The notes under the pieces were generated by a model. That model ran no database searches. It worked only from the letters and a program-made list of their open reading frames with translations, and was not told the origin of the DNA. Both the position numbers and the translations under genes were made by a program. From Phycisphaerae bacterium (lineage in GTDB: Bacteria; Planctomycetota; Phycisphaerae; Sedimentisphaerales; Anaerobacaceae), in assembly GCA_028714255.1 (NCBI GenBank), contig JAQTMR010000005.1:62001-126000 (forward strand): a stretch of DNA of 64,000 bases, in the 5' to 3' direction. Of the stretch, positions 2,982 through 60,818 are shown one piece after another (position 1 is the stretch's first letter; every line of letters begins with the position of its first letter).

Positions 2982-3026
2982 TTTTTGATGAGAAATCTAA
3001 TGATATCGAGGGCGAGAATCAGTGGC

Positions 3027-4082
3027 ATGAAGTTGAGAGGCAGAAAAATTGGAGTCGATAGCTCTGTTCTGGTAGTCGCAGAGGTTTCGGCAAATCACGG
3101 CCAGAACTTCAAACGAGCTGTGGCGATGATAAAAAAAGCCAAGGAATGCGGGGCTGATGCAGTGAAGTTCCAGGCATATACGCCTGACACATTAACTATT
3201 GACTGCAGCAACAAGTATTTCCGGATTAAGCACCCGAAGTGGGGGGGGCAAACGTTATATGAGCTTTACAAAAAGGCATATATTCCGTGGGAGTGGTTAA
3301 AAAAACTTAAAAAAGTCGCGGATGATTCGGGCATTCTGTTTTTTGCTACGGCTTTCGATAAGACCAGCGTGGATTTTTTGGAAGAGCTAAATGTTCCACT
3401 CCATAAGATTTCATCGTTTGAACTGGTGGACCTGCCGTTGATTGAGTATGCCGCGAAAACGAAAAAACCCTTAATGATGTCCACGGGGATGGCTGATGTC
3501 AGCGAGGTTCGAGAAGCGGTGGCTGTCGCAAAGAAAGCCGGTGCGAAAGAGATAATTCTGCTAAAGTGCGTATCAAATTATCCTGCCAGGCCAGAGGAGA
3601 TGAATTTGAGAGCAATTCCACATATGAAAAAGCTTTTTGGCTGTCCGGTCGGTCTTTCCGACCATAGCATGGGAATCGGAGCTTCTATTTGTGCGGTGGC
3701 TTTGGGGGCCAACGTCATAGAGAAACATTTTACTCTGTCGAGAAAAATCAAAACGGAGGACAATTTCTTCTCGATAGAGCCGGATGAACTTAAGGAACTG
3801 GTAGAGAATGTAAGGATTGCGGAAAAGGCGTTAGGCAAGGCCCAGTACAAACTGACGGTAAATGAAAAGAAAAGCAGAATATACAGACGTTCTTTATTCG
3901 TGGTTGAAGACATCAAAAAAGGACAACCCTTTTCTTCTGAGAATATTAAATCCATCAGGCCTTCAGGAGGGCTTAAGCCTGGTTATGCAGATATGGTTTT
4001 AGGCAGAAAAGCGCAGGTTAATATCAAGAGAGGGACACCTTTGAGCCCGGATTTGATTGTACCTGCTCTGCGTAAAAAATAA
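3027..4082 (+). CDS. pseI: Pseudaminic acid synthase-like (NeuB/PseI family) enzyme
   Basis: The protein aligns by eye with PseI/NeuB sialic-acid synthases. It has VVAEVSANHGQN near the start, ADAVKFQAYTPDTLTID, then LYELYKKAYIPWEW, a pattern that favours PseI over NeuB. Further on are LLKCVSNYPA, GLSDHS and IEKHFTL of the TIM barrel. The C-terminus is a SAF/antifreeze-like domain (RRSLFVVEDIKKGQ, SIRPSGGL). The reaction is condensation of phosphoenolpyruvate with a 6-deoxy di-N-acetyl-hexose to a nonulosonic acid. I chose ATG 3027 because it places the first barrel strand at the family position. ATG 2988 and ATG 3000 are also in frame. A run of eight G interrupts the gene at 3241-3248. No CMP-transferase (PseF) is in the window. 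Confidence 0.85.
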   Translation: MKLRGRKIGVDSSVLVVAEVSANHGQNFKRAVAMIKKAKECGADAVKFQAYTPDTLTIDCSNKYFRIKHPKWGGQTLYELYKKAYIPWEWLKKLKKVADDSGILFFATAFDKTSVDFLEELNVPLHKISSFELVDLPLIEYAAKTKKPLMMSTGMADVSEVREAVAVAKKAGAKEIILLKCVSNYPARPEEMNLRAIPHMKKLFGCPVGLSDHSMGIGASICAVALGANVIEKHFTLSRKIKTEDNFFSIEPDELKELVENVRIAEKALGKAQYKLTVNEKKSRIYRRSLFVVEDIKKGQPFSSENIKSIRPSGGLKPGYADMVLGRKAQVNIKRGTPLSPDLIVPALRKK

Positions 4083-5179: not shown

Positions 5180-5191
5180 TGAGTGGCAAAC

Positions 5192-6076
5192 ATGAAAATT
5201 ACTTCGGATGAGTCTTTAAAGAATTTTTTGTGGGATATTTTCATTAGGTCGTTTGATTGTCGAAACGACTTGTACGAAGACACTTCCGTTCTGGATGAAA
5301 ATGAAAAGACCAAATTGCTTCAGGCATATTTTAAAGACATTAACATCTGGGGAAAGATATACAACAAACGCATCTCTTTTATTAAAGAAAATATACGTTT
5401 AATAAATAATAACGAGGTTTTAGTTGTCGAAGGAGTCGTTTTTCATCCCAAAGCAGGATGGGTTATTTCTAACGGCGATATTAGAGCCTTCTTAGGCAAA
5501 GTATCATATAATTTGGATGTGAAGGTCAACATAGGTAATTACACCTATTTCTCAGGCCCAGGGATAATACGAGGCAAAGGTCAGCTCCAAATCGGCAGCT
5601 ATTGTTGTGTTGCGGAAGGCTGCTATATTAGTGTTGCCAGCGATCGTCACTTCATTGATTGTACGTCGCTGTACGGTTTTTTTAATGAAGGGAATTTCAG
5701 GATACACCATCTGAAATTTGATGTTCCGAAAAACTATACCGATTATGGTAAAGGGCGGAGAAGTGATGTGACAATTGGCAACGATGTTTGGATTGGAAGA
5801 AACGTCAGGATTTTTAACGATGTCAACATTGCTGACGGATGCGTTATCGCGGAGAGAAGCCTTGTGAAAAAAGACTGCGAACCCTACGGCATTTACGGAG
5901 GTGTTCCTGCAAAATTAATCAAATACAGATTTTCAAAAAACATCATTGAACAACTATTGAAAATTCAATGGTGGAACTGGCCATTGGCCAAAATACGGCG
6001 GAATGCAAAGTTTTTTGCTAAGGACCTTACAAAATTCGACGGCTGTTTATCCAGTATTATTGCAGATGGTGGATAA
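5192..6076 (+). CDS. Left-handed beta-helix (hexapeptide-repeat) acyltransferase
   Basis: The C-terminal half has imperfect hexapeptide repeats: VKVNIGNYTYFSGPG, LQIGSYCCVAEGCYI, then SDVTIGNDVWIGRNVRIFNDVNIADGCVI. It ends with GIYGGVPAKLIKYRF, the closing element of CatB/VatD/maltose O-acetyltransferase-type enzymes. A long N-terminal part of about 110 residues precedes the helix and has no recognised motif. The likely role is acetyl transfer from acetyl-CoA to a sugar of the surface glycan. An in-frame GTG at 5183 is an alternative start. The gene begins about 12 bases after kdsD. Confidence 0.8.
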   Translation: MKITSDESLKNFLWDIFIRSFDCRNDLYEDTSVLDENEKTKLLQAYFKDINIWGKIYNKRISFIKENIRLINNNEVLVVEGVVFHPKAGWVISNGDIRAFLGKVSYNLDVKVNIGNYTYFSGPGIIRGKGQLQIGSYCCVAEGCYISVASDRHFIDCTSLYGFFNEGNFRIHHLKFDVPKNYTDYGKGRRSDVTIGNDVWIGRNVRIFNDVNIADGCVIAERSLVKKDCEPYGIYGGVPAKLIKYRFSKNIIEQLLKIQWWNWPLAKIRRNAKFFAKDLTKFDGCLSSIIADGG

Positions 6077-6122: not shown

Positions 6123-7718
6123 TTGGCAAACAGATTTGTGTTAAAATTCAAAAACTTGCTTCGGAAGATTCCGCATCTACTTGAGAGTTTAAAGCTGGAT
6201 GAATGGGAAGCTGCGTTTATTCGTCATAATAAAAAGATATGGCGCAATTTTACACAGGTTAAGGAAGATGGGGAAATACTGGTTGAATCGTATGATATTG
6301 CCGCCAGCATCATTGCTTTTGGCTACTTTGCGAATGCGTTGGCAAAAAAACACAATGCAAGAATAAAAGTTTACGCGGCTAAACTGACAGGCCTGGAATC
6401 AAAGATTTATAGATGGAATAATAACAGAAAGTACAAGTCCTTTAATGCTGTTCCTTTTTATTGCGAACTATCCAAGTCCCAGTTATTAGAGGTTGAAAAA
6501 TTATTTAGTGAAATCTACCCAACGTTAAAAACCAAAAGGGATGTGGAAAACTTAAAGGTGGAGGGACTATGGATTGGTGATTTGCTTTACGACTCTTACC
6601 TGATGAGATACAGGGTGCCTACCATAGAGATACAAAGTAAGAATTTCCAAAGCTCTTTACGAAAAGCGTTAGATTATTATATTTACTGGAGAGATTATTT
6701 TAACTCTCATCATGTCAAAGCTGTTATCGCCAGTCATTGCGTATATTCACGCAATGCAATTATTTTACGCATCGCTGTTCAAAGGGCAATTCCAGCTTAT
6801 CAGGTAAATGCGTTTTCGTTATATCGCCTTACTCCCAAACGTCTTTGGGCCTATAACAGCTTCTCCTCTTATCCGGAATGGTTTAAAAGTTTAAGCCCAC
6901 GAGAACAGCAAAAGGGGCTAGCTCTTGCCAAGGAAAGAATTGAGCGGAGATTTGCCGGTGAAGTCGGCGTTGATATGCTTTACTCTACCAGATCGGCTTT
7001 TGTTCGAAGTAATAATAAAAGGGTGATACGGGAAAGTCCCAGGATAAAGGTTTTAATTGCAGCTCACTGTTTTTTTGATGCCCCGCATCCTTACGGGGTG
7101 AACCTTTTTCCTGATTCACATGAGTGGTTAACTTTTTTGGGAAATATCTCTGAGAAAACTGATTACGACTGGTACGTTAAAACCCATCCTGATTTTCTTC
7201 CGGGAAACGCGGAATCTCTCGAAAATATTATCTGTAATTATCCTAAAATAACTTTAATTCCAAAAGAAACTTCTCACCTGCAAATTATTGAAGAAGGTAT
7301 TGATTTTGTTCTTACTGTTTACGGAACGGTTGGATTTGAATATGCGGCGTTGGGGGTAACTGTCATCAATGCGTCCTTGTGTAATCCGCATATTGGATAT
7401 AACTTTAACATTCATCCAAGGACCATTGAGGAATATGAAAATATTTTATTGAATCTAAAAAACCAAAAACGGAACATGGATATTAACGAAGTGTACGAGT
7501 ATTACTACATGCATTACCTCTATGATAAAGGAGCAAATTGGCTGGTAGATGATTTTATTAACCGAATTGGTGGATATAACAAACAACGCGAGTCCGCGAT
7601 TTATAAACTATTTCTCGATGACTTTACCGTACAAAGACACGAAAAGATAATGAAGACACTGGCTAATTTTATTGAATCAGGGGATTTTTGTTTTAGGAAA
7701 AAGCATTATAGCTGTTAA
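6123..7718 (+). CDS. Putative capsule/surface-carbohydrate biosynthesis transferase
   Basis: This 531-residue protein starts at TTG with AGGAAGG well placed upstream. Around residue 354 it has VKTHPDFLPG, and near residue 400 VYGTVGFEYAALG followed by VINASLCNP. This arrangement is seen in KpsC/KpsS-like and related GT-B surface-polysaccharide proteins, where HP and GT-x-x-FE-x-A-x-x-G bind the sugar nucleotide. The first 300 residues match nothing I recognise. It probably transfers a sugar, perhaps a nonulosonic or Kdo-type sugar given kdsD and pseI next door; that is inference. A family assignment needs a profile search. Confidence 0.55.
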   Translation: MANRFVLKFKNLLRKIPHLLESLKLDEWEAAFIRHNKKIWRNFTQVKEDGEILVESYDIAASIIAFGYFANALAKKHNARIKVYAAKLTGLESKIYRWNNNRKYKSFNAVPFYCELSKSQLLEVEKLFSEIYPTLKTKRDVENLKVEGLWIGDLLYDSYLMRYRVPTIEIQSKNFQSSLRKALDYYIYWRDYFNSHHVKAVIASHCVYSRNAIILRIAVQRAIPAYQVNAFSLYRLTPKRLWAYNSFSSYPEWFKSLSPREQQKGLALAKERIERRFAGEVGVDMLYSTRSAFVRSNNKRVIRESPRIKVLIAAHCFFDAPHPYGVNLFPDSHEWLTFLGNISEKTDYDWYVKTHPDFLPGNAESLENIICNYPKITLIPKETSHLQIIEEGIDFVLTVYGTVGFEYAALGVTVINASLCNPHIGYNFNIHPRTIEEYENILLNLKNQKRNMDINEVYEYYYMHYLYDKGANWLVDDFINRIGGYNKQRESAIYKLFLDDFTVQRHEKIMKTLANFIESGDFCFRKKHYSC

Positions 7719-16672: not shown

Positions 16673-17644
16673 ATGAACATTAATGCAGCAGCAAAAAGTT
16701 TGCTCCCATTTATAAAAAAAGGGCAATTTGGAAAGGCTTTATCACTGGCTTTTAATCAAATAGACCATCATATCAGCATAAAGGTTCTTAAAAAAAGAGA
16801 GGTTATCAGAAGGATAAACAATTATCCGATGATTCTTAACTTCGACGAAGAAGGATTGTCAACTCAACTGATGGTTCACAGGGAAAGGGAAATCGCCGAA
16901 ACCGAGACGATTAAAAGAATTGTAAAGCCGGGGATGTGTATTTTGGAAATAGGCGCAAATGTCGGTTACTATACTATTCTTATGGGTAAATTAGTTGGTG
17001 AAAACGGCAAAATATATTCTTATGAACCATATCCTCGCAGTGTTGACATCCTTGTTCGTAACCTGAGGCTGAATAATCTTGATAACATCGTCGAAGTCCA
17101 CAACGTGGCGGTTTCCAGCGAAAATACCGTGAAAAGATTATACCTCGGCAGCGCAACGAACGTTCACAGCTTAATAAACTACAAAACCGGCGATGACAAC
17201 CCGGACTACATCGAAGTTAAAACCAAAGATGTTAGAGAAATTCTGGCAGGTGCCGACAGGAAGATTGACCTGTTAAGAATGGACATCGAAGGTCATGAGC
17301 GTGAGATTTTTAGCGGGTTGAGTGGTGATATTAAGGCGTTTCTGCCGACCCGAATATTTTTCGAGATTCATCCTTTGGGCAGTATTGACCCCGACCCGAC
17401 GTTTACAAAACCATTGACGAATATGCTGGAGCTGGGGTACTGCCCCGAATTGGTTATTTCGTCTTCGCATGTCGATGCTAAAAAAAGATTTGATGAGTTA
17501 AACTGTCAGCCATTTAAGGTTATCAATGTTAATACAAGCACAAGTTATTTATACAACAACATAAAAGCCTCTGATTTATTAAAGGTCGCCGCAAGGCGTC
17601 CGAAGATAACAAGGGCGATACTCTTGAAGCGAGAACTGCCCTGA
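16673..17644 (+). CDS. FkbM family methyltransferase
   Basis: MCILEIGANVGYYTILMGKL, KIYSYEPYPRSVDILVRNL and LLRMDIEGHEREIFSGL are the signature blocks of FkbM-type O-methyltransferases. The start ATG 16673 is chosen because it has AGGGAT upstream and leaves 25 bases after the preceding gene; the open frame extends further upstream but lacks a better start. The product is 323 residues. FkbM enzymes methylate sugar hydroxyls in polysaccharides and natural products. Its stop overlaps the next ATG by one base (TGATG). Confidence 0.9.
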   Translation: MNINAAAKSLLPFIKKGQFGKALSLAFNQIDHHISIKVLKKREVIRRINNYPMILNFDEEGLSTQLMVHREREIAETETIKRIVKPGMCILEIGANVGYYTILMGKLVGENGKIYSYEPYPRSVDILVRNLRLNNLDNIVEVHNVAVSSENTVKRLYLGSATNVHSLINYKTGDDNPDYIEVKTKDVREILAGADRKIDLLRMDIEGHEREIFSGLSGDIKAFLPTRIFFEIHPLGSIDPDPTFTKPLTNMLELGYCPELVISSSHVDAKKRFDELNCQPFKVINVNTSTSYLYNNIKASDLLKVAARRPKITRAILLKRELP

Positions 17645-18705
17645 TGCTCAAACAGAGAGTTAGAAAGATAACAGAGCTTGTAACCAATAGAGTGGCTCGC
17701 AGGGACGTTTATTACGTGGTGGAAGGTGCGAACTGGTCGATAGACCACGATGGCCGTTCCATCACAGCAAATTTACCATCTCTGAGTTCTGCGGTTGTTA
17801 CGACTTGTCGCGGCGTTAGAAACAGCATAGTGCATTTTGGTTCAGTCAACACATTCCTCGGTGTCAGTGGCCCAATCCTTCCCCACAAAAGCAACAAAAT
17901 TATAGTAACCTGGTTTCATATTTCACCGGGCGACAAACGCGTCGAATTTATCCCGTCGGTCGTGAAATATGTGAATTTATGGCATACTTCCTGCGGTATT
18001 ACCCGAGACAAGCTGGTGAAGTTAAAGGTCCCGCAGGAAAAGATAGTAGTAATTCCTCTTGGTGTTAACCTGGATGCCTTCAATGTGCCGAGCCTGCAGC
18101 AAAAAGAAAATATCCGTTCCAAATTGGGCGTATCGAAGGAAAAAATTGTCATAGGCTCTTTTCAAAAGGATGGCAATGGATGGGGCGAAGGGCTGGAACC
18201 TAAACTGATAAAAGGCCCTGATGTTTTTTGCGATGTCGTAGATAAGCTGAAACAGCGGTATGATTTATTTGTGGTACTTACAGGCCCGGCCCGTGGTTAT
18301 GTTAAGCGACGGCTTGAAAAGGCCGGAGTTTCTTATTTGCACCGTTTTTTGGCTCAGCCCGACGACGTTGCTGATTATTATAAAGCGTTAGACCTTTATC
18401 TGATAACATCTCGTGAAGAAGGGGGACCAAAGTCGATTCTTGAGTCCTTGGCGAGCGGAGTTCCTTTGGTCTCTACGAAAGTTGGTATGGCCTCCGATAT
18501 TCTTACTGACGGCGAAAACTCTTTGTTATGTGACATTGATGATGTTGACCAGATAGTGCAAAAAAGCGTTATGGTTCTGGAGAATAAGGGAAAAACACAA
18601 AAAATCGCTGAGAAAGGACTGGAAACAGTACGCCGATATAACTGGTCCTATATAGCTCGACAATATGAACATGATTTATATAAACGTGTTTTAGAATTGG
18701 TATGA
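17644..18705 (+). CDS. Glycosyltransferase family 4 (GT-B)
   Basis: The donor domain is clear: KIVIGSFQKDGNGW, then YYKALDLYLITSREEGGPKSILESLASGVPLVSTKVGM around residues 245-280, with the E-x7-E motif and a following GMASDIL loop. The N-terminal half (NIVHFGSVNTFL-like segment IVHFGSVNTF and IVTWFHISPGD) fits the acceptor domain. The protein is 353 residues. It is coupled to both neighbours through overlapping start and stop codons, so it sits in the middle of a co-translated series. Confidence 0.88.
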   Translation: MLKQRVRKITELVTNRVARRDVYYVVEGANWSIDHDGRSITANLPSLSSAVVTTCRGVRNSIVHFGSVNTFLGVSGPILPHKSNKIIVTWFHISPGDKRVEFIPSVVKYVNLWHTSCGITRDKLVKLKVPQEKIVVIPLGVNLDAFNVPSLQQKENIRSKLGVSKEKIVIGSFQKDGNGWGEGLEPKLIKGPDVFCDVVDKLKQRYDLFVVLTGPARGYVKRRLEKAGVSYLHRFLAQPDDVADYYKALDLYLITSREEGGPKSILESLASGVPLVSTKVGMASDILTDGENSLLCDIDDVDQIVQKSVMVLENKGKTQKIAEKGLETVRRYNWSYIARQYEHDLYKRVLELV

Positions 18706-20465
18706 ATATAATTATTACAAGCAGGGATGCATTTAGGCACCAGGTATTTTTATCTAAAGCGGTAGAATACTTTGGAGCACATATTTCGAGGATATATATA
18801 CAGAGGATTGAAAAAGAAGAGAATAATTATTGGTATAGTAAAATACGGAATAAATTATTCGCAGTTAGACATAGAATCTCAAATAATGGAATTAAAACCC
18901 TTGATGATTATCTACGTGATTTATATGACAATATTGATTCCGGCCTATGGAGGAATTCTAACGCGGTAAAAAAATACGTAACAGATATTAACAGCCCTGA
19001 TGTTCAAAAAGAAATATACGATTCAAATCCTGACTTAATTCTGATTTTCGGGGGGAAAATTCTAAAAGGTGCGTGGATTGACGGTGCCAAGTTCGGGTCA
19101 ATCAACCTGCACTATGGCATCCTGCCTTATTACAGAAGCGGCCATTCGACTCAGTTTGCTTTATATCATGAAGCCTACGAAAGGATTGGGGCGACTATCC
19201 ATTATATTGACAAAGGTGTAGATACCGGCCCCATAATATCAAAATGTTACGCAAAGCCCAACGTAACTAACTTTCAGAAGTTATTAGCTAATGTCTTTAA
19301 GGGAGGGATTGATGCTCTAATCAATACCGTCTTGAAAATAATTAACGGAGAGAAGGTCGCAGGAAATAGTGAGTGCTCGGAAGACAGCTATTTCCCGGGA
19401 AAAGCCTTTAACGAACGTATAAGGCAAACCGCGAATTTAAGATTGAAAGTGCTTAATCAATACAGGTTTCCGCATGTCTCGAGAGCGTTGAGGGACATTC
19501 AAAATAAATCGTTTTATTCTTCGGCAAAGCTCAAAAAACATAGCAGCTTGGAAAATGGAATATATATTTTCTTATATCACTCTCTGGTGGATAGTAATAA
19601 TCGCAAGGAATGGGAAGGATGCGGCGCCAAAGTGTTAACATATAAGAAAGATTTTTGTGACCATATTCGTTATCTGTCGGAAAATGCAAATTGCATTAAG
19701 CTCAGCGAAGTCCCCAAAATTCTCTTCAAAGGTGACCTCAAAGAACCTTATTACACTGTAACATTTGATGACGGATATACAAATGTACTGGATAACGGCT
19801 TTGAAATCTGCCGAGAAAAGGGTGTGCATCCAACGGTTTTTGTGAACAGCGATTTCGCAAGCCAAAAACGAGTATATTACAGGATACTGCTGGCTCTTTT
19901 GCTTGGCAGGGGGTGTCATAAAGATATTATGACGGAAATCACAAAAATTTTTAATATCAACGATGAAATACAATTGTTCGACTTTTGCAAAAAATATTAT
20001 CGTTACAGGCAGACAGAGAGTACCATCAACGGTGTTTGGAATAAGCATTTTGCAGACGAAAATATTAAATGTCATTTGGATTGGAATCAACTTAGGTTTT
20101 TACAGGACAACGGATGGGAAATTGGTAATCATACGGTATCTCATCCTATATTATCAAAATTATCTTATGAACAGCAAAAGATTGAAATCGAAAATAATTA
20201 TCAGGAAATACAGCGGAACGGTTTAAATTGCATCAAATGGCTGAGTTATCCCAACGGAAAACCATGGGACATAAATGAGGACACGCAGGTATGGATGAGA
20301 GAGAACCCCGATTGGTACGGCATTGTTGTTGCTAATGGGTATAATCACTTCTACTCCCAAAATGAGTATTTGAGAATTGGAATAGTTAATGATAATATCC
20401 AGCAATTTAAAAATAAAATCGCATATTCAAATTGTAATGTAAAATCATTATTGAAAGATTGTTGA
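18702..20465 (+). CDS. Formyltransferase-like / NodB polysaccharide deacetylase fusion
   Basis: Residues 1-240 resemble methionyl-tRNA formyltransferase and ArnA-type sugar formyltransferases. They include LILIFGGKIL, INLHYGILPYYRSG with the catalytic Asn135-x-His137 pair, and DKGVDTGPII with Asp174. Residues 280-587 are a NodB-type polysaccharide deacetylase: YYTVTFDDGYTN (metal Asp near 356), then GWEIGNHTVSHP with the H-x3-H pair at 477/481, and LSYPNGK. The first half would formylate an amino sugar from formyl-tetrahydrofolate; the second would remove an acyl group. The two activities in one chain are unusual. Both active sites look intact. It overlaps its neighbours by 4 and 7 bp. Confidence 0.85.
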   Translation: MNIIITSRDAFRHQVFLSKAVEYFGAHISRIYIQRIEKEENNYWYSKIRNKLFAVRHRISNNGIKTLDDYLRDLYDNIDSGLWRNSNAVKKYVTDINSPDVQKEIYDSNPDLILIFGGKILKGAWIDGAKFGSINLHYGILPYYRSGHSTQFALYHEAYERIGATIHYIDKGVDTGPIISKCYAKPNVTNFQKLLANVFKGGIDALINTVLKIINGEKVAGNSECSEDSYFPGKAFNERIRQTANLRLKVLNQYRFPHVSRALRDIQNKSFYSSAKLKKHSSLENGIYIFLYHSLVDSNNRKEWEGCGAKVLTYKKDFCDHIRYLSENANCIKLSEVPKILFKGDLKEPYYTVTFDDGYTNVLDNGFEICREKGVHPTVFVNSDFASQKRVYYRILLALLLGRGCHKDIMTEITKIFNINDEIQLFDFCKKYYRYRQTESTINGVWNKHFADENIKCHLDWNQLRFLQDNGWEIGNHTVSHPILSKLSYEQQKIEIENNYQEIQRNGLNCIKWLSYPNGKPWDINEDTQVWMRENPDWYGIVVANGYNHFYSQNEYLRIGIVNDNIQQFKNKIAYSNCNVKSLLKDC

Positions 20466-20506
20466 ATAACATCACAGTTCCATTAATCGAGAAAGGTGGC
20501 AAAGCC

Positions 20507-21325
20507 GTGCTTAATAAGTTGTGCAATTTGTTTGGTAATAAGAGGAAGTGGTATGAAGATTTATGTGAATACTATGGCGTGACGCCTCGGCAGGCCAAGG
20601 AATTGGGGCCGCGTTCGGCAACACGCAAGCCGGAGCTGCCTGCTTCATCTACGGCAAATACCGTATCCGGTATGACAATGGCGGAAATATGGGAGAGCAG
20701 GCCTCGCAATACCGCCGAGGAGATTTACCAGTGGCAAAAAGATTTAGGCTCATGGAGCGCTTTTCGCCAATGTTATTATCATCGCAGCGACCGTTTCGAC
20801 TGGGTAGCCAACACGATACCTGCCGACGGCAAATATTGTGAATATGCCTGCGGAAGCGCACCGATAAGTAACTGGATTGCAGAGAATGTGAAAGACCGTG
20901 TAATTCACTTTACAACGGTCGATGTTGACTGTGAACATCGGACATTCGGCGAATGGCGCCTTAGGCGAAGAATAGAACGCAGCGGCAGGCCCCTTACATT
21001 GCAGGCCCTGATTGTCCGGCCCGATGCCCCATTGCCGTTAAAGGACCAGTACGATGTTATTAGTATTATCGAGGCCCTTGTCCTCATTCACAATCCGCTT
21101 GAAGTAGTTCAGCATGTCACGGAACATATCCGCAAAGGCGGCAAATTCTGGGAAACTTATACAGTTATGGACGACCCCCGCACGAAAAACTGGATATCTT
21201 TTAGGCAGGCTCAGGAGCAGAGGCCCGCAGTATTTGATTACATCCGCGCAAAGTATAAACTTCTTAAAGGACCTGACCCTGATACCCCGAAAGACGCCGG
21301 AAGGCGATGTTGGGAGAAGTTGTAA
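20507..21325 (+). CDS. SAM-dependent methyltransferase-like protein
   Basis: The middle of the protein carries GKYCEYACGSAPISNWIAE as a variant motif I, a second-strand acidic end (TTVDVDCEH), DVISIIEALVLIHNP and HIRKGGKFWETYT. This is the order of a class I methyltransferase. GTG 20507 has GAAAGGTGG just upstream; an in-frame TTG at 20459, inside the previous gene, is the alternative start. The N-terminal 60 residues contain a Pro/Ser/Thr-rich linker. The acceptor is unknown. Confidence 0.68.
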   Translation: MLNKLCNLFGNKRKWYEDLCEYYGVTPRQAKELGPRSATRKPELPASSTANTVSGMTMAEIWESRPRNTAEEIYQWQKDLGSWSAFRQCYYHRSDRFDWVANTIPADGKYCEYACGSAPISNWIAENVKDRVIHFTTVDVDCEHRTFGEWRLRRRIERSGRPLTLQALIVRPDAPLPLKDQYDVISIIEALVLIHNPLEVVQHVTEHIRKGGKFWETYTVMDDPRTKNWISFRQAQEQRPAVFDYIRAKYKLLKGPDPDTPKDAGRRCWEKL

Positions 21326-29397: not shown

Positions 29398-31458
29398 ATG
29401 GTCACCATAATCGTTCCAACCTATAACGCGTCGAAATATCTGCCTTCTCTGCTCATAAAACTTGAATTACAAACATTCAAGGATTATGAGTTGATGGTGG
29501 TAGATTCGTCCTCAAGTGACGATACTGTTAATATTGCACGGGCTCACCATGCCGATGTTATGACCATTCCACAATCGCAGTTCGACCATGGCGGGACAAG
29601 GACTCTGCTTGCCAAAAAGGCAAAAGGCGATATCCTGGTTTATTTGACCCAGGATGCCTTGCCCTATAATGAATATGCCATCGAGAACATCATTAAGCCT
29701 TTTACTGATGATGGAGAAATCGGGGCCGCCTTTGGAAGGCAAGTGCCGTATTCTGGAGCATCTGTTTTTGCAGAACATTTGAGGTCATTTAATTATCCGG
29801 ACACTTCTTATACAAGAATCCTGGAGGACAGGAAAAACTATGGCATCAAAACAGCTTTCCTGTCCAATTCCTTCGCGGCTTACAGAAAATCTGTGTTGGA
29901 GGAAATTGGGTATTTCAAAAGCGGGTTGCCCTTCGGAGAAGATGCCTGCGCCGGTGCGAAAATACTTCTAAAAGGTTATAAAATCGCTTATATCGCCGAA
30001 GCAATAGTCTTTCACTCTCACAATTACACCATTTGGCAGGACCTCAAACGGTATTTCGACATGGGGACATTCCATAGAACGGAAAATTGGCTCCTGGAGG
30101 AATTTGGAAAAGCTGAAGGCGAAGGAATCAGATACGCAAAATCGGAGATTAAATTTTTATTGAAAAAGAGAAGGTTTGATTTACTTCCCGTATCTGCACT
30201 GAGACTCGTTACGAAATATTTGGGCTATAAACTGGGAACGGATTATGTGCGTATAAAGCCGTTGATTGCAAAGACCAAACTAGCTATTACAGCACCGCCA
30301 CTTTCAGCAATTGTAGTAACAAAACGTAAGGAAATATCCAAAGTAGCTCTTGTCTGTGACTGGTTGACCGCTATGCGCGGCGGCGAACGCTGCTTGGATG
30401 CTATATGTGAGATTTACCCTGATGCCGACATCTTCACATTGGTTCACTTCCCTGGCTCTGTATCAAAAACCATAGAGAAGCACAAAATACAAACCTCTTA
30501 TGTCCAGCACCTGCCGGGCAGTATAAAAAACTTCAGGATTTACCTGCCGCTTTTCCCTCATGCTATACAAAGATTTGATTTGAGCGGGTATGACTACGTC
30601 TTAAGTTTCAGCCATTGTGCCGCGAAAGGCATCAAAGTTCCACATGGCCTCTTACATATATGTTATTGCCATACGCCGATGCGATATGCCTGGCACATGA
30701 GGGATGCATACCTGGATACAGTACCCAGGTTGGAAAGATTGCCGATAGAATATACGCTGAACCGTCTTAAAAACTGGGATGCAAGAGCTTCATCCAGGGT
30801 AACGCACTTCATAGCTAACAGTAAAAACACTCAAAATCGGATAAGAGAAGCCTACAATAGGGATTCGGTGATTATTTATCCTCCGGTTGAATGCAGTCGA
30901 TTTGCCGTTTCCGAAGATGACGATGGTTACTATCTTGTTCTTTCGGCATTGGTGCCTTATAAAAGAATCGATATAGCGGTTAAGGCCTTTGCTGCTACCG
31001 GCCGAAAACTTGTAATTGTGGGAAATGGCCCCGAGCTGCCCCGGTTGAAGAATATGGCTTCGGCTAATATCTCTTTCGTCGATAACGCAGGTGACAACCA
31101 GGTTGTCGAGTACTTAAAAAAATGCAGGGCATTGATATTTCCCGGCGAAGAAGATTTCGGCATCGTCCCGCTCGAAGCGCAGGCCTGTGGTAAGCAGGTT
31201 ATAGCTTTTGGCAGGGGCGGGGCGATGGAAACGATAGTGGGACTGGACAGCACTCAACCTGGGCAGGAAAATGCGACAGGAATATTTTTCTATGAACAAA
31301 CATCCGAAGCTCTGCAGAAAAGCATTTTGCTGTTTGAGAAAACCAAAGACCGTTTTGACCCTCAAAAATGCCACGATAATGTCCTTAGATTTGACCGCCC
31401 CATCTACCAGAAATCGATGCAAAATTATATTCAATCTGTCATAGCTGAAAACTGCTGA
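29398..31458 (+). CDS. Bifunctional glycosyltransferase, GT2 fused to GT4
   Basis: Residues 1-270 are a GT2 domain of the rhamnosyltransferase type (TIIVPTYNASKYLPSLL, SQFDHGGTRTLLAKKAKG, ILVYLTQDALP, PFGEDACAGAKIL). After a linker, residues from about 315 form a GT4 domain resembling WbaZ mannosyltransferases: KVALVCDWLTAMRGGERCL, CHTPMRYAWHMRD, FIANSKNTQNRI and PGEEDFGIVPLEAQACGKQV. Both domains look complete, so the 686-residue protein may add two sugars in succession. It is the last plus-strand gene of the glycan locus and converges on a minus-strand operon 20 bp away. Confidence 0.9.
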   Translation: MVTIIVPTYNASKYLPSLLIKLELQTFKDYELMVVDSSSSDDTVNIARAHHADVMTIPQSQFDHGGTRTLLAKKAKGDILVYLTQDALPYNEYAIENIIKPFTDDGEIGAAFGRQVPYSGASVFAEHLRSFNYPDTSYTRILEDRKNYGIKTAFLSNSFAAYRKSVLEEIGYFKSGLPFGEDACAGAKILLKGYKIAYIAEAIVFHSHNYTIWQDLKRYFDMGTFHRTENWLLEEFGKAEGEGIRYAKSEIKFLLKKRRFDLLPVSALRLVTKYLGYKLGTDYVRIKPLIAKTKLAITAPPLSAIVVTKRKEISKVALVCDWLTAMRGGERCLDAICEIYPDADIFTLVHFPGSVSKTIEKHKIQTSYVQHLPGSIKNFRIYLPLFPHAIQRFDLSGYDYVLSFSHCAAKGIKVPHGLLHICYCHTPMRYAWHMRDAYLDTVPRLERLPIEYTLNRLKNWDARASSRVTHFIANSKNTQNRIREAYNRDSVIIYPPVECSRFAVSEDDDGYYLVLSALVPYKRIDIAVKAFAATGRKLVIVGNGPELPRLKNMASANISFVDNAGDNQVVEYLKKCRALIFPGEEDFGIVPLEAQACGKQVIAFGRGGAMETIVGLDSTQPGQENATGIFFYEQTSEALQKSILLFEKTKDRFDPQKCHDNVLRFDRPIYQKSMQNYIQSVIAENC

Positions 31459-31478: not shown

Positions 31479-32984
31479 CTAAAGCTCTTGCTTGTAAATA
31501 GTGAATTTTGATTTCTTGTCCTCAACGGGGAAAACCTTTTTCATTCGCAGCATCTCTTCGCCGGCCGGCATATCCTTTTTATCCTCGGATATTTTTACCA
31601 AATATTGGGCCTCTTTTGGCACGGCCCGGTCATTGTGCACAATCCCTCTGCGACCGGAATAAAAACTGATACGACCATCAGGAACTGCTATAATATCCTT
31701 CTCATCGGTATTTTCTGCAAGCCATCTGGCAGCGTCCCGATAGTTTTGTTTTTCTGCACGGACAGGACTCAGTAATTTCGGACCGCATATAGCAATTCCG
31801 ATTATCAATAAAACCATAAACCAAAAGTTAGTGTTGGTTTTCTTGGAGAATCTCTCATCGAGCCACGATGCCATCGCATCCAGTCCGATAGGGACGTAAA
31901 AAATCGTAAACACCACCAGCGTTAGAGTATGTCTTCTGCTCATATAACCGAACTTGCAATACAGCAGTATCATTATAAGTACGTTAAGAGCAATAAGGGC
32001 GATTACTAAAAAGTTCTCCGGCTCACGCCAGTCTCGCTTTCTAAAATATTCATAAGCTCCTATTAATAGAGCCGGCACAAAAAACCACATCAGAGTTTCG
32101 CTGACTCGCTGCACCAGCTTACCTAAAGCCCCCGCAATATCTGACGGTGCAAAACCGGCAGCATATACATCTGGATAGATATTGATTTTCTGTTTGCTAA
32201 CTTCGGATAATTGTGTGTTGGTCGTGAACTCGACTAACTGCTTCTTGGGAAATAGCTCTCCCTTCAGTTTCATATACGGCCCCGCAACGGCCAAAAAACC
32301 TGCCACTAAGAGAACAAATGCAAATACCGCCTTGCGTCTGCTTATCGTTCGTCCGGGCCAAAACACCTGCAGTCCCAGCCATAAGGTACCGAACACAATG
32401 ACTTGGGTACACTCAGGCCGAATCAGGTACCCTATTCCCGCTGCCACCCCCGCAAGACCAAACAGCCACCATTTCCTGCTTACTGCCCCCCATATCAGCA
32501 GCAAAAAACCGGTTGATAAAAAGAAAATATGCGGCCAATCGCTCAAAGCATCGCTTCCGAGCCTCGCAGGGTTCGGCAGTAATATAAGAATTAAGACAGA
32601 CCAGAAACTAAACCTCTTGCCCACAATCTTCTTGCCCACGAAATAAAGCATCACCACGGCCAGCAGCCTGAATACCAACGCCACAGCCTGGGCGGAATAA
32701 ACCCAACTCTGTATTGATGAGTCATCCTTCCGCACTTCTGATATTTTGTGCGCAATGGTAATTAAGAAGGGATAACCCGGGTGCTGATGTGAGCTATTCA
32801 TCGCTTTCACGGGGGAAGTCTCAAGGCCTTTGGCAAATTCTATAAAGGTTACTCCGTCTTTTGCGATAAGAACTGTTGTGCCGATAAGATATACGCCGAC
32901 ACAAAACGCAACCGCCAGCAGAATTGAGATGTGAATAATAGCTTTGCTTCCACCAGATTGTTCGTCTGTTATTTTAATACGCAT
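31479..32984 (-). CDS. GT39/ArnT-type membrane glycosyltransferase
   Basis: The 501-residue protein has about ten hydrophobic segments. The first periplasmic loop, after transmembrane segment 1, has AKDGVTFIEFAKGL (Asp43, the position of the catalytic acid in PMT/ArnT-like GT-C enzymes), and HPGYPF follows at 68-73. These enzymes use polyprenyl-phosphate sugars on the outer face of the inner membrane to modify lipids, glycans or proteins. The C-terminal soluble part includes ENTDEKDIIAVPDGRISFYSG. The start overlaps the end of the upstream phosphotransferase gene by 11 bp, so the two form an operon. Confidence 0.85.
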   Translation of the reverse strand: MRIKITDEQSGGSKAIIHISILLAVAFCVGVYLIGTTVLIAKDGVTFIEFAKGLETSPVKAMNSSHQHPGYPFLITIAHKISEVRKDDSSIQSWVYSAQAVALVFRLLAVVMLYFVGKKIVGKRFSFWSVLILILLPNPARLGSDALSDWPHIFFLSTGFLLLIWGAVSRKWWLFGLAGVAAGIGYLIRPECTQVIVFGTLWLGLQVFWPGRTISRRKAVFAFVLLVAGFLAVAGPYMKLKGELFPKKQLVEFTTNTQLSEVSKQKINIYPDVYAAGFAPSDIAGALGKLVQRVSETLMWFFVPALLIGAYEYFRKRDWREPENFLVIALIALNVLIMILLYCKFGYMSRRHTLTLVVFTIFYVPIGLDAMASWLDERFSKKTNTNFWFMVLLIIGIAICGPKLLSPVRAEKQNYRDAARWLAENTDEKDIIAVPDGRISFYSGRRGIVHNDRAVPKEAQYLVKISEDKKDMPAGEEMLRMKKVFPVEDKKSKFTIYKQEL

Positions 32985-34380
32985 TCCTGCTTTTTATAAT
33001 ACGCCAGGGGGTTGACAACAGAATTCTAAGGTCGAATCCGAACGACCAGTTCTTAATATAGTATAAATCATATTGCAATCTTTTTTTTAGAGAAGTGTCG
33101 CCGCGAAAGCCGTTGACCTGGGCCCAGCCGGTCATTCCTGCTTTCAGTTTATGCCTGAGCATATACTTCTTGTATTCCTCTGAGAACTGCTTTACGAAGT
33201 GGGGCCGCTCCGGCCGTGGACCGACAAGGCTCATTTCGCCTTTTATTACGTTTATAAGCTGAGGCAGCTCGTCCAGACTTCCGCGCCGCAGCCACGCTCC
33301 GATTGTCGTACGTCTCGGGTCGTTAGGCTTGGCCCATTGTGGACCGTCTTCTTCCTCCGCATCAACCCTCATCGTGCGAAACTTCAGCATTTCAAAATCC
33401 TTCTGGTCCATACCCACCCGTACCTGTTTGTAGAAAACCGGCCCTTTGCTGGTTAATTTAATCAGCAGGGCGATTATTACCATAGGAATCGAAAATATAA
33501 TAAGAAATACAAGCCCTGTCACACGGTCGAAAATTTCTTTCAGCACAATGTTATACCCGCTCAACGGCGGCTCCGCCGATGAAAACAATAGTTGCGACCC
33601 AATCGGAACCGCCTCGGCGTCGCTTATCGACATAAGGCTGCCCCAGTCAGGAACTATTCGTATAGTTAATCCCGCACACTGGAGAGATTCAAGAATCGGA
33701 TACACATCCTGTGCTTCACTGCCGCTGAGAGTAAGAAAAACCTCGTCTATCCTCCTGGTTTTGACCAGTTCCGTCAATTTATCAATCGGGCCGTACACAG
33801 GTGCCCCTGATAATACAGTGCCGATTCGGCTGGGATTGTTGTCCACGAAAAACCCGCATCTCAAACCCAGCCATCCCATTCGCTTGAGGTCACGAACTAA
33901 TAGTTGCCCCTTTTTCCCTGCTCCAATCACGGCATAATATCGCAGGTTATATCCTCTTCTTCGCAGAAACCTTAGGCTTTCTATCGCCAGTAAATGTGAG
34001 AGGCACAGCCCCGCAAACAGCATCGTTATGAATAGTACCAATAGCTTTCTTGAGTAAGGCACGTTCTGAAGGTAATAGAGAAATGCCAGCACTAATAGCC
34101 CGCTCAGCAGACTCGCCTTTGAAATATCTACAAGCTGCCTGAGCATACCGTATATGCGCTTGGACTTATAAAGCCCCGACCACAGGCATCCTGCATAGCA
34201 GATACAAATCACCGGTAAAGCCAGGCTTAGATGTCCCCGAAAACTGGGTATCCCCTTTGTCGTCTCGAATATCCCGAAATTGAATCGAACAAAATAGACT
34301 GCTATCCACACGACGGCGATAATTATAATATCTATTATTGAGCGAAGCAGTGAAAAAAATGCCGCATATCTCTTTAGCAT
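32974..34380 (-). CDS. Polyprenyl-phosphate glycosyl-1-phosphate transferase (WcaJ/WbaP type)
   Basis: Four N-terminal membrane segments and a CoA-binding-like Rossmann domain (YYAVIGAGKKGQLLVRDL) precede a further hydrophobic segment. The catalytic domain has GPVFYKQVRVG, FEMLKFRTM, LRRGSLDELPQLINVIKGEM, SLVGPRPE and KAGMTGWAQVNG. This is the full polyisoprenyl-phosphate hexose-1-phosphate transferase architecture, 468 residues. It starts repeat-unit synthesis by loading a sugar-1-phosphate on undecaprenyl phosphate. It is the first gene of the minus-strand pair and probably primes the glycan assembled by the plus-strand glycosyltransferases. Confidence 0.93.
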   Translation of the reverse strand: MLKRYAAFFSLLRSIIDIIIIAVVWIAVYFVRFNFGIFETTKGIPSFRGHLSLALPVICICYAGCLWSGLYKSKRIYGMLRQLVDISKASLLSGLLVLAFLYYLQNVPYSRKLLVLFITMLFAGLCLSHLLAIESLRFLRRRGYNLRYYAVIGAGKKGQLLVRDLKRMGWLGLRCGFFVDNNPSRIGTVLSGAPVYGPIDKLTELVKTRRIDEVFLTLSGSEAQDVYPILESLQCAGLTIRIVPDWGSLMSISDAEAVPIGSQLLFSSAEPPLSGYNIVLKEIFDRVTGLVFLIIFSIPMVIIALLIKLTSKGPVFYKQVRVGMDQKDFEMLKFRTMRVDAEEEDGPQWAKPNDPRRTTIGAWLRRGSLDELPQLINVIKGEMSLVGPRPERPHFVKQFSEEYKKYMLRHKLKAGMTGWAQVNGFRGDTSLKKRLQYDLYYIKNWSFGFDLRILLSTPWRIIKSRNAY

Positions 34381-34627: not shown

Positions 34628-35536
34628 TTGATTGTCCTCAAGTTGTTTAGCAGGCATTTCGGAGTGAGAGGAGACAATGTGGGTGCAAGGTCAATAATAT
34701 TTAAATCAAACCTGTGGCTCAAGGGGACACTCTTTTTAGTTTTGTGGGTTTTGTCTTTCCTGATTCTAATAATTGTCTCCTCAAATAATGAATTAAACAA
34801 GCTCTACCATGATGCGGTAAGCCATGGCCTCGAGTTCAAATTGCCAAAGAATCGAATAGGGACACTTAGTTATGTGTGTTCAGATCCCGAAGAAAACCAC
34901 AGGCCTGTTTATTCCATTAGCTTTGGGGGCCTTCTTGTGGAAAATAATAACTTCGGGTTATTCGAAACCGCAGTGCACAAAATAGTAAAAATACAGGACC
35001 TCGAACTCGCGTTTTATAAATACACTCCGCCCAACATTACTTCAAATACAAATCTCAGCAGTAAAAAGAACACTGCAGCACCCGATATTCCCACAGTGCC
35101 TGAAGGTCCATTTCCTTATGCCGGGGAACTCCTGGATAATATCTCTAACTCAATAAATCCTATGAACGGCTGGCGTATTAATATTGATATAAGCAACACT
35201 TCGGAGGTTTGTGTTACTAACCTTGATTACAAAGTATTCTGTGACGGAGCTGCGCTGCTTAGTGTGCGAAGCAGAAGAGCAGTAGTTTCCAGCAGACGTC
35301 CTGATGTGGTAATACTCCGTGGCCATGTAATAGTCAAGGCGGTAGATGGCAGCATTCTCGAGAGCAATCGCGTCATATGGGACATAAGGAAACATCATTT
35401 TACTACAGATGGAACTTACTTTTTAACCCGCAATGGCAGAAAAATACGGGGTAAAGATATATGTGTTGATGATAAATTAAATATCGTGCAGGCACAGTTC
35501 GCCGCACTCAAAGAAGGAGGCAAGAAAAATGGTTAA
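34628..35536 (+). CDS. LptC-like membrane-anchored protein
   Basis: A single transmembrane helix (GTLFLVLWVLSFLILIIVSS, about residues 33-52) is followed by a periplasmic domain rich in beta strands. The C-terminal part has VVILRGHVIVKAVDGSILE, then a stretch with TDGTYFLTRNGRKIRG and a D-x-L end. That is the repeating V-x-x-x-DG-x-x-L / TD-x-x-V-x-x-x-x-G-x-x-I-x-G pattern of LptC/OstA domains that carry lipopolysaccharide. At 302 residues it is longer than classical LptC (about 190). The start is TTG with a strong GGAGGAG site. It overlaps the next gene by 8 bp. No lptA or lptB is adjacent. Confidence 0.6.
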   Translation: MIVLKLFSRHFGVRGDNVGARSIIFKSNLWLKGTLFLVLWVLSFLILIIVSSNNELNKLYHDAVSHGLEFKLPKNRIGTLSYVCSDPEENHRPVYSISFGGLLVENNNFGLFETAVHKIVKIQDLELAFYKYTPPNITSNTNLSSKKNTAAPDIPTVPEGPFPYAGELLDNISNSINPMNGWRINIDISNTSEVCVTNLDYKVFCDGAALLSVRSRRAVVSSRRPDVVILRGHVIVKAVDGSILESNRVIWDIRKHHFTTDGTYFLTRNGRKIRGKDICVDDKLNIVQAQFAALKEGGKKNG

Positions 35537-37757
35537 GAGGATTGTATCCCTGACGTTGTTTGTAAGTTGTTGTCTTATTTCTGCTGTTTTTGCTGCCGAG
35601 CCGAACGATTACCTTGTACCCGGCAAGTCGGATATATGCGAGGGTAGTTTGTCCAGCTTGCGAGAAGCCTATCAAATCTTTGATGCCGGTTTAAACGATA
35701 CGTCCTGTGCGGATTGTAATACCAACAGAGAGCTTATATTCCTGCATGCGGCGACAAGAACAGCAATGCTGTTCATTGATAACAATGACCTCTCAATAAA
35801 CGATAGTTTCCTCGAAGTGGCGGAAAGGTTTGGCGTGCAGGTTTTGGGGGACTTCTTTGAAGAGCTTGACGTCAACGTGTCGCTAACGGATAACCGCTAC
35901 AAAATACCTGATGGCGCGCCGGATTCTAACGAAATTTCCACCATAGTGCACAACTGGATAGCCGAAATTAACGATGTCAACGGCATCGTTGCTGAGTTGA
36001 ACTCAATCAGCGACTCGCCGTCTGACCGCTTTCGGTTCTTCTTCGAGCCAAATGACACCGGTCTGGAAAACCCCTTGGAAGTGGACTACGGGGAAGTTTT
36101 GATTCTGAAAGGATTGCTGCTGGCCTTCAAGAGCCAATTAGAAGCCAAATTGGCCTATGATGTTTTCGTTGATGTGAATGAAACGCTTTTGCACGAACTT
36201 TTATATGAAGACGGCGTCAATCCTGAAGAACCCAATTTTGCCGAGCTTGCTGCCATCATTGGTATTAGTGATCCCAACAACATCAGTATAAACGATGATT
36301 TTCTCAATCCTTATCCTGATTTATTAAAGGTCTTGCCAACATCCAACTTTCCGGATGTCAATGGAAAAGCTATATTAGCCCAGGTACGACAGGATTGGAT
36401 TGATTCAATAAACTATTACTTTGATGCACTTAATTACATCGTTGCCGAAGACGTGCCGCCGGGTACTGACCCGCAGGAGGACGAGTTTCTTTATATAGAC
36501 CCTGATAGTCAGTTTGTTTTGGACGTAGTCGAAGATAGATTGACTGCTCTGCGGGACTCTCTGCAAAATGACACCATAATAACATACCCGCTTGAAACAA
36601 CCAAAACGTACGACATATACGACGCCAATTCGGTGCATATAGGCCAATTAGCATTGGTGTATAATTTCACCGGTATCGAAGGAGATGATGGTAGTTTAAC
36701 ATTCGTAGATACCAATCTCGCACCTTCGCCATGGGAGGTCGAATGGTTTGGGAGGGAAGATGCAAACCAGATTGAAGTCGAGTTGGAATATTATTCAGAG
36801 AGCGGATGGAAACAAGGATGGCTCGAAGGCACTTTAAGTAATGACGGCAACAGTATAATAGATGCTACATTCGAATACTGGGGTTCTGCTCCACCCTGTA
36901 CAGCTACTTTTTATGAGGTATGGGCTGGCAACACCGACTATACGGCCTATCCGCAGTGGTGGGGGGAATACTTCTTCAACATAGACCAGCAGGACTACAC
37001 AAAGATGGGCGAATCTGATGGTCAAACAAAAACATTCTTTGGTGATTACGCGTTTTATGTCATTGCTGCCAGGCATGAGTTTTTCCTCGATAGCATTCAG
37101 GGCTCTACAGGTGCTTACTACAACTATGGAAGTATTTGGACTGGTAATACCTCCAATGAGCAAAATATCTGGGGGCCTACGGATGGCTGGTATGCCACTG
37201 TTGGTTATCAGGAAAGTTGGACTGCCTTCAGAGGCTTTGTAGCCATTGCCAATCCCGGCGACTGGACGAGCATTACCGTTACGTCAGACAGGATTTGCTC
37301 ACCCGGCGATACTCTATACGGGCTATCAGGTCTGCTCATCAGCACCGAAGTTGAAGAAGTAAACATCAATCCAAATCCGATTTTTGGCTCTTCACCGAAT
37401 TACCCCAATCCTGTCAATCCGAGGGACTTACTGCCTCTATTCGACCAGGAAAATATTCCTATAACGTGCACATTCGGCCACGGCTTAGGCAACGATGCGA
37501 CGCTCGGCGGAATTCTCCCGGATATGACGCAGCAGGACTGGGCAACATCATTCGACCTTGGTTTTCTCCAGGGTGACTCCGATACCGATTGTGATGTGGA
37601 CTTTACTGACTATGCTGTTCTTGCTATTCACTGGCTGAATCAAAATTGCACAGAAACAGATTGGTGTGACAAGGCTGATATTGACCAGAGCGGTGAGGTA
37701 GATATTTTCGACCTTTATATTTTTGCCGACAACTGGCTCGAAGGTGCTGGTGGATAA
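35529..37757 (+). CDS. Secreted protein with C-terminal dockerin-like repeat
   Basis: Residues 1-22 are a Sec signal peptide ending AVFA-AE. The N-terminal 350 residues are acidic and helical with repeated NDPN-like turns. A beta-rich central part follows, with DYTAYPQWWGEYFF and many Trp/Tyr residues. The last 60 residues form a dockerin-I-like pair of calcium-loop repeats: GDSDTDCDVDFTDYAVLA and KADIDQSGEVDIFDLYIFA, each followed by a W-L motif. Such domains are abundant in planctomycetes but usually without a cellulosome. The central fold is unknown to me. It overlaps the lptC-like gene, suggesting the two belong to one envelope function. Confidence 0.75.
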   Translation: MVKRIVSLTLFVSCCLISAVFAAEPNDYLVPGKSDICEGSLSSLREAYQIFDAGLNDTSCADCNTNRELIFLHAATRTAMLFIDNNDLSINDSFLEVAERFGVQVLGDFFEELDVNVSLTDNRYKIPDGAPDSNEISTIVHNWIAEINDVNGIVAELNSISDSPSDRFRFFFEPNDTGLENPLEVDYGEVLILKGLLLAFKSQLEAKLAYDVFVDVNETLLHELLYEDGVNPEEPNFAELAAIIGISDPNNISINDDFLNPYPDLLKVLPTSNFPDVNGKAILAQVRQDWIDSINYYFDALNYIVAEDVPPGTDPQEDEFLYIDPDSQFVLDVVEDRLTALRDSLQNDTIITYPLETTKTYDIYDANSVHIGQLALVYNFTGIEGDDGSLTFVDTNLAPSPWEVEWFGREDANQIEVELEYYSESGWKQGWLEGTLSNDGNSIIDATFEYWGSAPPCTATFYEVWAGNTDYTAYPQWWGEYFFNIDQQDYTKMGESDGQTKTFFGDYAFYVIAARHEFFLDSIQGSTGAYYNYGSIWTGNTSNEQNIWGPTDGWYATVGYQESWTAFRGFVAIANPGDWTSITVTSDRICSPGDTLYGLSGLLISTEVEEVNINPNPIFGSSPNYPNPVNPRDLLPLFDQENIPITCTFGHGLGNDATLGGILPDMTQQDWATSFDLGFLQGDSDTDCDVDFTDYAVLAIHWLNQNCTETDWCDKADIDQSGEVDIFDLYIFADNWLEGAGG

Positions 37758-59735: not shown

Positions 59736-60818
59736 ATGACAATTGCTTATATTGGACTTGGCAGCAATTTAGGGGATAGAAAAAGCTTTATCCACAAAGC
59801 CCTTAAAATGCTGACCGAAACTAAAGATATCGAGGTTGTCCGTCTCAGCGACATACTCGAAACCGCTCCTTTGGGTGGCGCCAATCAGCCTGACTACTTA
59901 AACGCAGTGGCCCAAATCAAAACCGCTTTGACTGCGGAGGATTTACACAAGATTCTTATTGGTATTGAAGCTTCGCTCGGCAGAACCAGAAATGAAAAAT
60001 GGTCGTCGAGGAATATTGATTTGGATATTCTACTCTTCGGCGATGAAATAATAAACAGCCCCCGTTTAACCATTCCGCATTCGCAGATGCACCTGCGCTC
60101 GTTTGTCCTCAAGGGCCTGTGTCAGCTCGATGCTGAACTGCTTCACCCTGTTATAAAAGAGCCGATGAAAGAGCTGGCGGGCAGGCTCAATAATGCGGAC
60201 TTTGTGCTCAATCCCGAATTGCCGCAGCTTATCAGTGTTGCAGGTGTCATCGGCGTTGGGAAAACCACCTTGGCTAAAAAGCTGTCGGACATCCTCGGCT
60301 GCAAATGTATCCTCGAACCATATGACGAAAATCCGTTTCTGCCGGATGTTTACGCCGGCAAAAAGGAATTGGCGCTGGATTCCCAGTTATTTTTCCTGAC
60401 TGGCAGGGTAAAACAATTAACCCGCAGTGCGCTGGCTGCCGGGCAAATAACTATCAGCGATTATGTCTTTGACAAAGAGCTTATTTATGCTCAAATATTG
60501 CTCGATGCCGAGCAGTTGGCTTTGTATAAGGGAATTTATCCGCCGTTCAGCGAAGCGGTTGTCTCGCCGGCCTTGGTAATATATTTGACCGATTCCGTGC
60601 AAAACTGCCTCGAACGGATTCACAGACGCAATCGCCCCTACGAGCAAAAAATCGAGCCGCAGTTTCTGGATGCCCTTAGCCGAGGCCACGAAAAGCTCTT
60701 TGCGGACTGGAAGAAATGTCCAGTTATCCGTTTATCGATGTTGCAGTTCGACTTTATGCGGGATGATAATGTCCAATCTCTCGCGAACCAGATAAAAAGT
60801 TATATCGCAATACAATGA
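59736..60818 (+). CDS. folK: FolK-deoxynucleoside kinase fusion
   Basis: Residues 1-155 are 6-hydroxymethyl-7,8-dihydropterin pyrophosphokinase: IAYIGLGSNLGDRKS, RNIDLDILLFGDE and IPHSQMHLRSFVLKGL. Residues 165-360 are a deoxynucleoside kinase: ISVAGVIGVGKTTLAKKL (P-loop 170-177), EPYDENPF, ISDYVFDKELIYA and the lid ERIHRRNRPYEQ. The first part acts in folate synthesis, the second phosphorylates deoxynucleosides, so the chain joins folate and nucleotide salvage. Both active sites look complete. The stop overlaps panC by 4 bp. Confidence 0.92.
   Translation: MTIAYIGLGSNLGDRKSFIHKALKMLTETKDIEVVRLSDILETAPLGGANQPDYLNAVAQIKTALTAEDLHKILIGIEASLGRTRNEKWSSRNIDLDILLFGDEIINSPRLTIPHSQMHLRSFVLKGLCQLDAELLHPVIKEPMKELAGRLNNADFVLNPELPQLISVAGVIGVGKTTLAKKLSDILGCKCILEPYDENPFLPDVYAGKKELALDSQLFFLTGRVKQLTRSALAAGQITISDYVFDKELIYAQILLDAEQLALYKGIYPPFSEAVVSPALVIYLTDSVQNCLERIHRRNRPYEQKIEPQFLDALSRGHEKLFADWKKCPVIRLSMLQFDFMRDDNVQSLANQIKSYIAIQ

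Follow-up and report, generated by a model that had tools for sequence, protein, structure and literature searches.

The question raised by this locus is what a protein does that carries a folate-dependent formyltransferase and a NodB-type deacetylase in one chain. In the Arn pathway (Ara4N-lipid A) the N-terminal domain of ArnA is a formyltransferase and ArnD is a deformylase. The original prediction for the fusion was that it may run a similar transient protect-and-release step in a glycan pathway or, alternatively, that its deacetylase half may act on a different N-acyl group. Here the window refers to the whole stretch of 64,000 nucleotides that was analysed.

The fusion gene and its active sites

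The fusion gene lies on the forward strand at 18702..20465 and encodes 587 amino acids. The single uninterrupted frame that had been predicted is borne out by an ATG start, the lack of an internal stop and two Pfam domains above cut-off. Formyl_trans_N (PF00551) matches at residues 98-181 (E 3.8e-12, 46.8 bits against a gathering score of 26.1) within a formyltransferase half of residues 1-229 (18702..19388), while Polysacc_deac_1 (PF01522) matches at residues 344-524 (E 2.9e-20, 72.9 bits against 23.1) within a NodB/CE4 deacetylase half of residues 282-580 (19545..20441). These are joined by a linker of about residues 230-281 (19389..19544), which is predicted with low confidence to be helical.

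The catalytic residues expected of both enzymes are all present. In the formyltransferase half N135 (codon 19104-19106), H137 (19110-19112) and D174 (19221-19223) read SINLH...VDTG, and in the NodB half the metal site is given by TFDDG (D356/D357, 19767-19772) and HTVSH (H477, 20130-20132; H481, 20142-20144). These residues are invariant in an alignment with the fusions of a sister species (G392) and of a genome from another order of the phylum (G310), and across 40 sequences D356, D357, H477, H481 and the Y516-P517-G519 of motif 3 (YPxG) are nearly invariant. By profile score and catalytic triad the fusion is a member of the Formyl_trans_N folate-dependent formyltransferases, and by profile, D-D, HxxxH and YPxG it is a member of the NodB/CE4 family (PF01522). 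In a tree its formyltransferase domain clusters with non-Fmt formyltransferases, separate from Fmt and ArnA. The NodB half also has ~65 residues inserted between motifs 1 and 2, which the G310 fusion lacks.

One concern raised with the original prediction was an error merging two genes. A sequencing or assembly join is excluded by G392, another species of the genus, which encodes a fusion of identical architecture (588 aa, 80% identity over the full length) in a cluster that is syntenic with the window, the gene order being kept from the pyruvyl transferase through ClpB. Between the two species the dN/dS (Nei-Gojobori) is 0.12 for the formyltransferase, 0.15 for the linker and 0.10 for NodB, which argues for one gene under selection and against an assembly join. 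Within the window's order the fusion was found in 2 of the 161 genomes searched with a fusion profile, namely the window genome (G000) and G392. The G+C content of the gene is 0.366, with the minimum at both gene ends, compared to 0.425-0.49 for its neighbours, and a horizontal acquisition preceding the split of the two congeners would fit this.

Structural models and known relatives

Modelling of the two active sites had been suggested as a check, and AlphaFold2 followed by comparison to the PDB recovered both folds. The model has a mean pLDDT of 74, with the NodB half mostly above 90, the formyltransferase half at about 70-86 and low confidence for residues 37-90 and the linker 222-281 (linker pLDDT <50). 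The model is unreliable as to how the domains sit relative to each other, and does not tell how the active sites face one another. The closest folds to the NodB half (282-580) are PplD (Z 26.5 over 221 residues, 2.4 A), Bacillus BC0361 (Z 25.0), IcaB (Z 24.4) and PgaB (Z 24.3). The formyltransferase half (1-233) matches Fmt (Z 17.4), ArnA (Z 16.4, 18% identity in the fold alignment) and the sugar formyltransferase Rv3404c (Z 14.9).

The fusion shares its two superfamilies with ArnA and ArnD, and its formyltransferase half has the ArnA fold with an N-x-H...D triad that aligns to that of ArnA. Unlike them it is one polypeptide. ArnA membership was rejected, as the protein lacks the UDP-glucuronate decarboxylating dehydrogenase domain, scores 32.5 bits against a cut-off of 777 and falls outside the ArnA clade. 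An E. coli ArnD query had no match to the NodB half or to the paired NodBs described below, whereas the same query retrieves true ArnD at E ~1e-95 in the same order, where ArnA-ArnD neighbours are found (L095, L100). The fusion's NCBIfam matches also do not include the ArnD model, and this sequence search rules out ArnD membership. As a separate observation, the 947-aa ArnA-like protein that precedes ArnD in G487 (L100:5244-8087) has about 240 extra N-terminal residues without a Pfam match, which may reflect an added domain or a wrongly called start.

Compared to the CE4 deacetylases PgaB, IcaB and PplD, the NodB half has its nearest folds (Z 24-26) and the TFDDG and HxxxH motifs in common. 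It differs in its insertion, in its position behind a presumably cytosolic N-terminal formyltransferase, and in a sequence far under the curated cut-offs; no PgaB/IcaB equivalog was matched in NCBIfam, and this likeness is one of fold only. The sugar N-formyltransferases WbkC/PerF, PseJ and Rv3404c resemble the fusion in fold, catalytic residues and surface-glycan cluster setting, but they stand alone and act on amines made by aminotransferases, while the fusion has a deacetylase attached. The match to PseJ (PDB 6ci2-6ci5) is weak, with no special similarity. By analogy only, the layout is that of human NDST1, a single-chain N-deacetylase/N-sulfotransferase with its deacetylase site at D319-D320/H389/H393 (PMC10864358). 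Both are single proteins in which a metal deacetylase (DD...HxxxH) is combined with a transferase that recaps the amine, although the window fusion is bacterial, would use formyl in place of sulfate and has an unrelated transferase.

Recurrence of the domain pair

A search for the domain pair across genomes, also proposed earlier, turned up further fusions and adjoining gene pairs in several phyla. G310 has formyltransferase, NodB and GT4 in one 918-aa chain (L033:3755-6511), and single-frame fusions are present in named MAGs of Acidobacteria (L149, 585 aa), Betaproteobacteria BroJett031 (L170, 531 aa) and Rubrivivax TGS_PRO34 (L150). The named fusions were retrieved by a contig scan with a three-sequence fusion alignment; the same type of scan with the window protein alone found no fusion. 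The phage and plasmid collections gave no full-length fusion, and none with the betaproteobacterial fusion as query. Formyltransferase and NodB genes adjoin or overlap on the same strand in G057, G522, G529, G515, G004, G307, WOR_3 SM23_42 (L206), Flavobacteriales UBA3364 (L207) and Granulosicoccus (L225). This makes about nine genomes beyond the fusions, with both gene orders found and a frequent 4-base overlap. As the scan that gave the named-genome examples was seeded with NodB, they over-represent coupling.

Free-standing NodB genes number three in a sample of 30 formyltransferase loci (359 kb); each adjoins a formyltransferase on the same strand, and one further locus is fused. This coupling of 13% should be read as an indication and not as a rate, since the sample is small, was mostly drawn with a formyltransferase profile that itself contained three members already known as paired, and has named loci from the NodB-seeded scan. 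None of the ~15 Fmt loci has an adjoining NodB. As a control, 8 glycosyltransferase genes in the sampled loci include none adjacent to NodB, which is too few to inform.

The settings of these modules differ. Those of L149, L225 and L098 sit amid non-glycan genes (DNA polymerase/PHP, photolyase/exonuclease, aspartokinase) with no transferase alongside, while the L150 fusion adjoins exosortase A and the L170 fusion asparagine synthase. The nonulosonic acid clusters of G522 and G004 have NeuB, formyltransferase and NodB in succession, and the G522 cluster (L084:7228-14714) contains two different formyltransferases along with NeuB, a PseC-like aminotransferase and NodB, a content that would fit a di-N-formyl sugar. 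The partner NodBs match the PgaB, IcaB and HfsH models of NCBIfam with scores below cut-off. Throughout the separately formed fusions and pairs the catalytic triads are invariant.

Maximum-likelihood trees of the two domains place the window-genus fusions apart from the L170, L150, L149 and G310 fusions, and in either tree the starred branches cannot be reconciled with fewer than two changes of the fused label. Judging from these sequences, the fusion probably arose separately at least twice. Both trees support a clade of the L170, L150, L149 and G310 fusions with the WOR_3 pair (100/96, 98/93), and in each of them the G522 pair is sister to the G004 pair (100/100). Since the clades match, the two domains seem to have been inherited together. 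Several rows in these trees are long and exact placements are uncertain.

The gene cluster around the fusion

The fusion is tightly packed between its neighbours on the forward strand. The stop of a GT4 glycosyltransferase gene (17644..18705) overlaps its start by 4 bases (ATGA), and a methyltransferase gene (20459..21325), which adjoins the fusion in G392 too, overlaps its end. This GT4 is not specially close to its counterpart domain in the triple fusion of G310. The window also holds PseI pseudaminic acid synthase (2985..4082, forward strand), above the NCBIfam cut-off. Just upstream of the window (L037) are PseB and PseC above their cut-offs and genes like PseG (below cut-off) and CMP-sugar synthetase. 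A Pse-associated methylase is also among the cluster's Pse genes. At the cluster end, on the reverse strand (31479..34380), are an initiating Bac_transf sugar transferase and a hydrophobic 501-aa protein that looks GT-C-like by eye and has no Pfam match. The organism looks to be diderm, as outer-membrane efflux and LptC-like proteins are encoded.

What this pathway lacks is a recognisable PseH acetyltransferase. No PseH above cut-off was found in the G000 or G392 genomes; G000 has one weak GNAT match (24.8 bits) outside the cluster, and G392 has none. A hexapeptide-repeat acyltransferase (5183..6076, forward strand) is a possible alternative in the window, and was not found in the G392 cluster. 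In G000 nothing but the fusion and Fmt is matched by the sugar-type formyltransferase profile. In G392, PseI is on the same contig as the fusion, and neither is present in a third congener (89% complete).

Proposed activity and alternatives

The intact paired active sites, the repeated coupling and the genomic context are observations, and from them we infer the activity of the fusion, the order of its reactions, its acyl specificity and its substrate. We would put an even chance on the fusion being a bifunctional glycan-modifying N-deacetylase/N-formyltransferase that exchanges N-acetyl for N-formyl. The C-terminal metal-dependent NodB domain would strip N-acetyl from a surface-glycan amino sugar in free, nucleotide-linked or lipid-linked form. 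The bared amine would then be formylated by the N-terminal domain with 10-formyl-tetrahydrofolate, with a net change from N-acetyl to N-formyl. The likeliest targets here would be pseudaminic acid from the Pse genes of the cluster, or whatever sugar the overlapping GT4 adds. A nonulosonic acid is plausible as the substrate because the Pse pathway has no recognisable PseH and the fusion is the only sugar-type formyltransferase found in the genome.

The order of the two steps is favoured because formylation followed by NodB action on one molecule would be futile and because the modules can stand alone. Modules alone among non-glycan genes also suggest that what each enzyme requires is its partner and not a surrounding pathway. 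Removal of acetyl rather than formyl is favoured by the GlcNAc-deacetylase-like folds of the NodB half and its lack of a match to ArnD. The second idea of the original prediction, a different N-acyl group, thus fits better than the first, as the nearest solved structures deacetylate N-acetylated glycans. On the other side, the deacetylase halves score far below all NCBIfam equivalog cut-offs, and the N-acyl group removed is one that we infer. Some modules also adjoin aminotransferases or Pse genes that would give a free amine without any deacetylation.

As the main rival, each half could have a target of its own, either another position or another sugar, and the fusion would serve only to co-express them. 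The formyltransferase would take the place of PseH, as PseJ is known to do, by formylating the 4-amine of UDP-4-amino-4,6-dideoxy-AltNAc towards 7-N-formyl pseudaminic acid, and NodB would deacetylate another glycan residue. Much of the cluster would agree with this: PseB, PseC and PseI are above cut-offs with PseG- and PseF-like genes beside them, no PseH passes its cut-off in either genome, the fusion is the sole non-Fmt match of the sugar-type profile in G000, and PseI goes with the fusion among the congeners. PseJ is itself an established formyltransferase. In Geobacillus Pse islands PseH is reported to be missing too, and some of these islands carry formyltransferase genes (PMC5109656). 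We still find this rather unlikely; it leaves unexplained the repeated coupling in unrelated contexts, including modules without Pse genes, the fusion is not specially similar to PseJ, and the hexapeptide acyltransferase could provide the PseH step in G000.

A protect-and-release scheme as in the Arn pathway, where the sugar would be formylated by the formyltransferase half, passed on by a glycosyltransferase and then deformylated by the NodB half, was the first idea of the original prediction. The catalytic families are indeed identical to those of ArnA and ArnD, and the overlapping GT4 gene, or the GT4 domain in the G310 chain, could provide the transfer step. Yet ArnD does not match the NodB half or its free-standing counterparts, the closest folds are N-acetyl deacetylases and some modules stand alone without a transferase, which makes this scheme improbable. 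We consider it more improbable still that one half is catalytically idle, for example with the formyltransferase half only binding folate or nucleotide sugar as an accessory domain of an ordinary polysaccharide deacetylase. That half is divergent, and the model shows poor order over some 50 of its residues (37-90), but the triads are invariant over separately formed fusions and pairs and both halves are under equal purifying selection.

Significance of a possible N-acetyl to N-formyl exchange

N-formyl amino sugars are known in O-antigens, flagellin glycans and archaeal S-layers, and the usual account is formylation of an amine derived from an aminotransferase. This route cannot put formyl on a nitrogen that was initially acetylated, so an extra step is needed for 5-N-formyl-legionaminic acid, a known product that needs a change from N-acetyl to N-formyl. 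It is known from Halorubrum, and its C5 nitrogen is normally acetylated; the Halorubrum paper names a formyltransferase and nowhere mentions a deacetylase (PMC6137143). If the exchange is real, the coupled formyltransferase and NodB would provide the step that is lacking here, would parallel heparan sulfate NDST in logic on the bacterial side, and would let N-formylated glycans be predicted from genomes by a sequence signature. A little short of an even chance, in our view, is the wider proposal that such fusions and pairs are an undescribed class of bacterial N-deacetylase/N-formyltransferases, separately fused, which would explain formyl on first-acetylated nitrogens, C5 of nonulosonic acids being one example. 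Both halves are from well-known superfamilies. We found no open-access full-text paper on a formyltransferase-polysaccharide deacetylase fusion, although the combination may be catalogued somewhere as an architecture without having been studied.

Other genes of the window

A GT2-GT4 double glycosyltransferase of 686 aa (29398-31458) is 87% conserved in the sister species. Two proteins of 531 aa (6123-7718) and 742 aa (35529-37757) have no Pfam match, the former having a 26% identical counterpart in G392. At 59736-60818 a deoxynucleoside kinase domain is fused to HPPK of folate biosynthesis.
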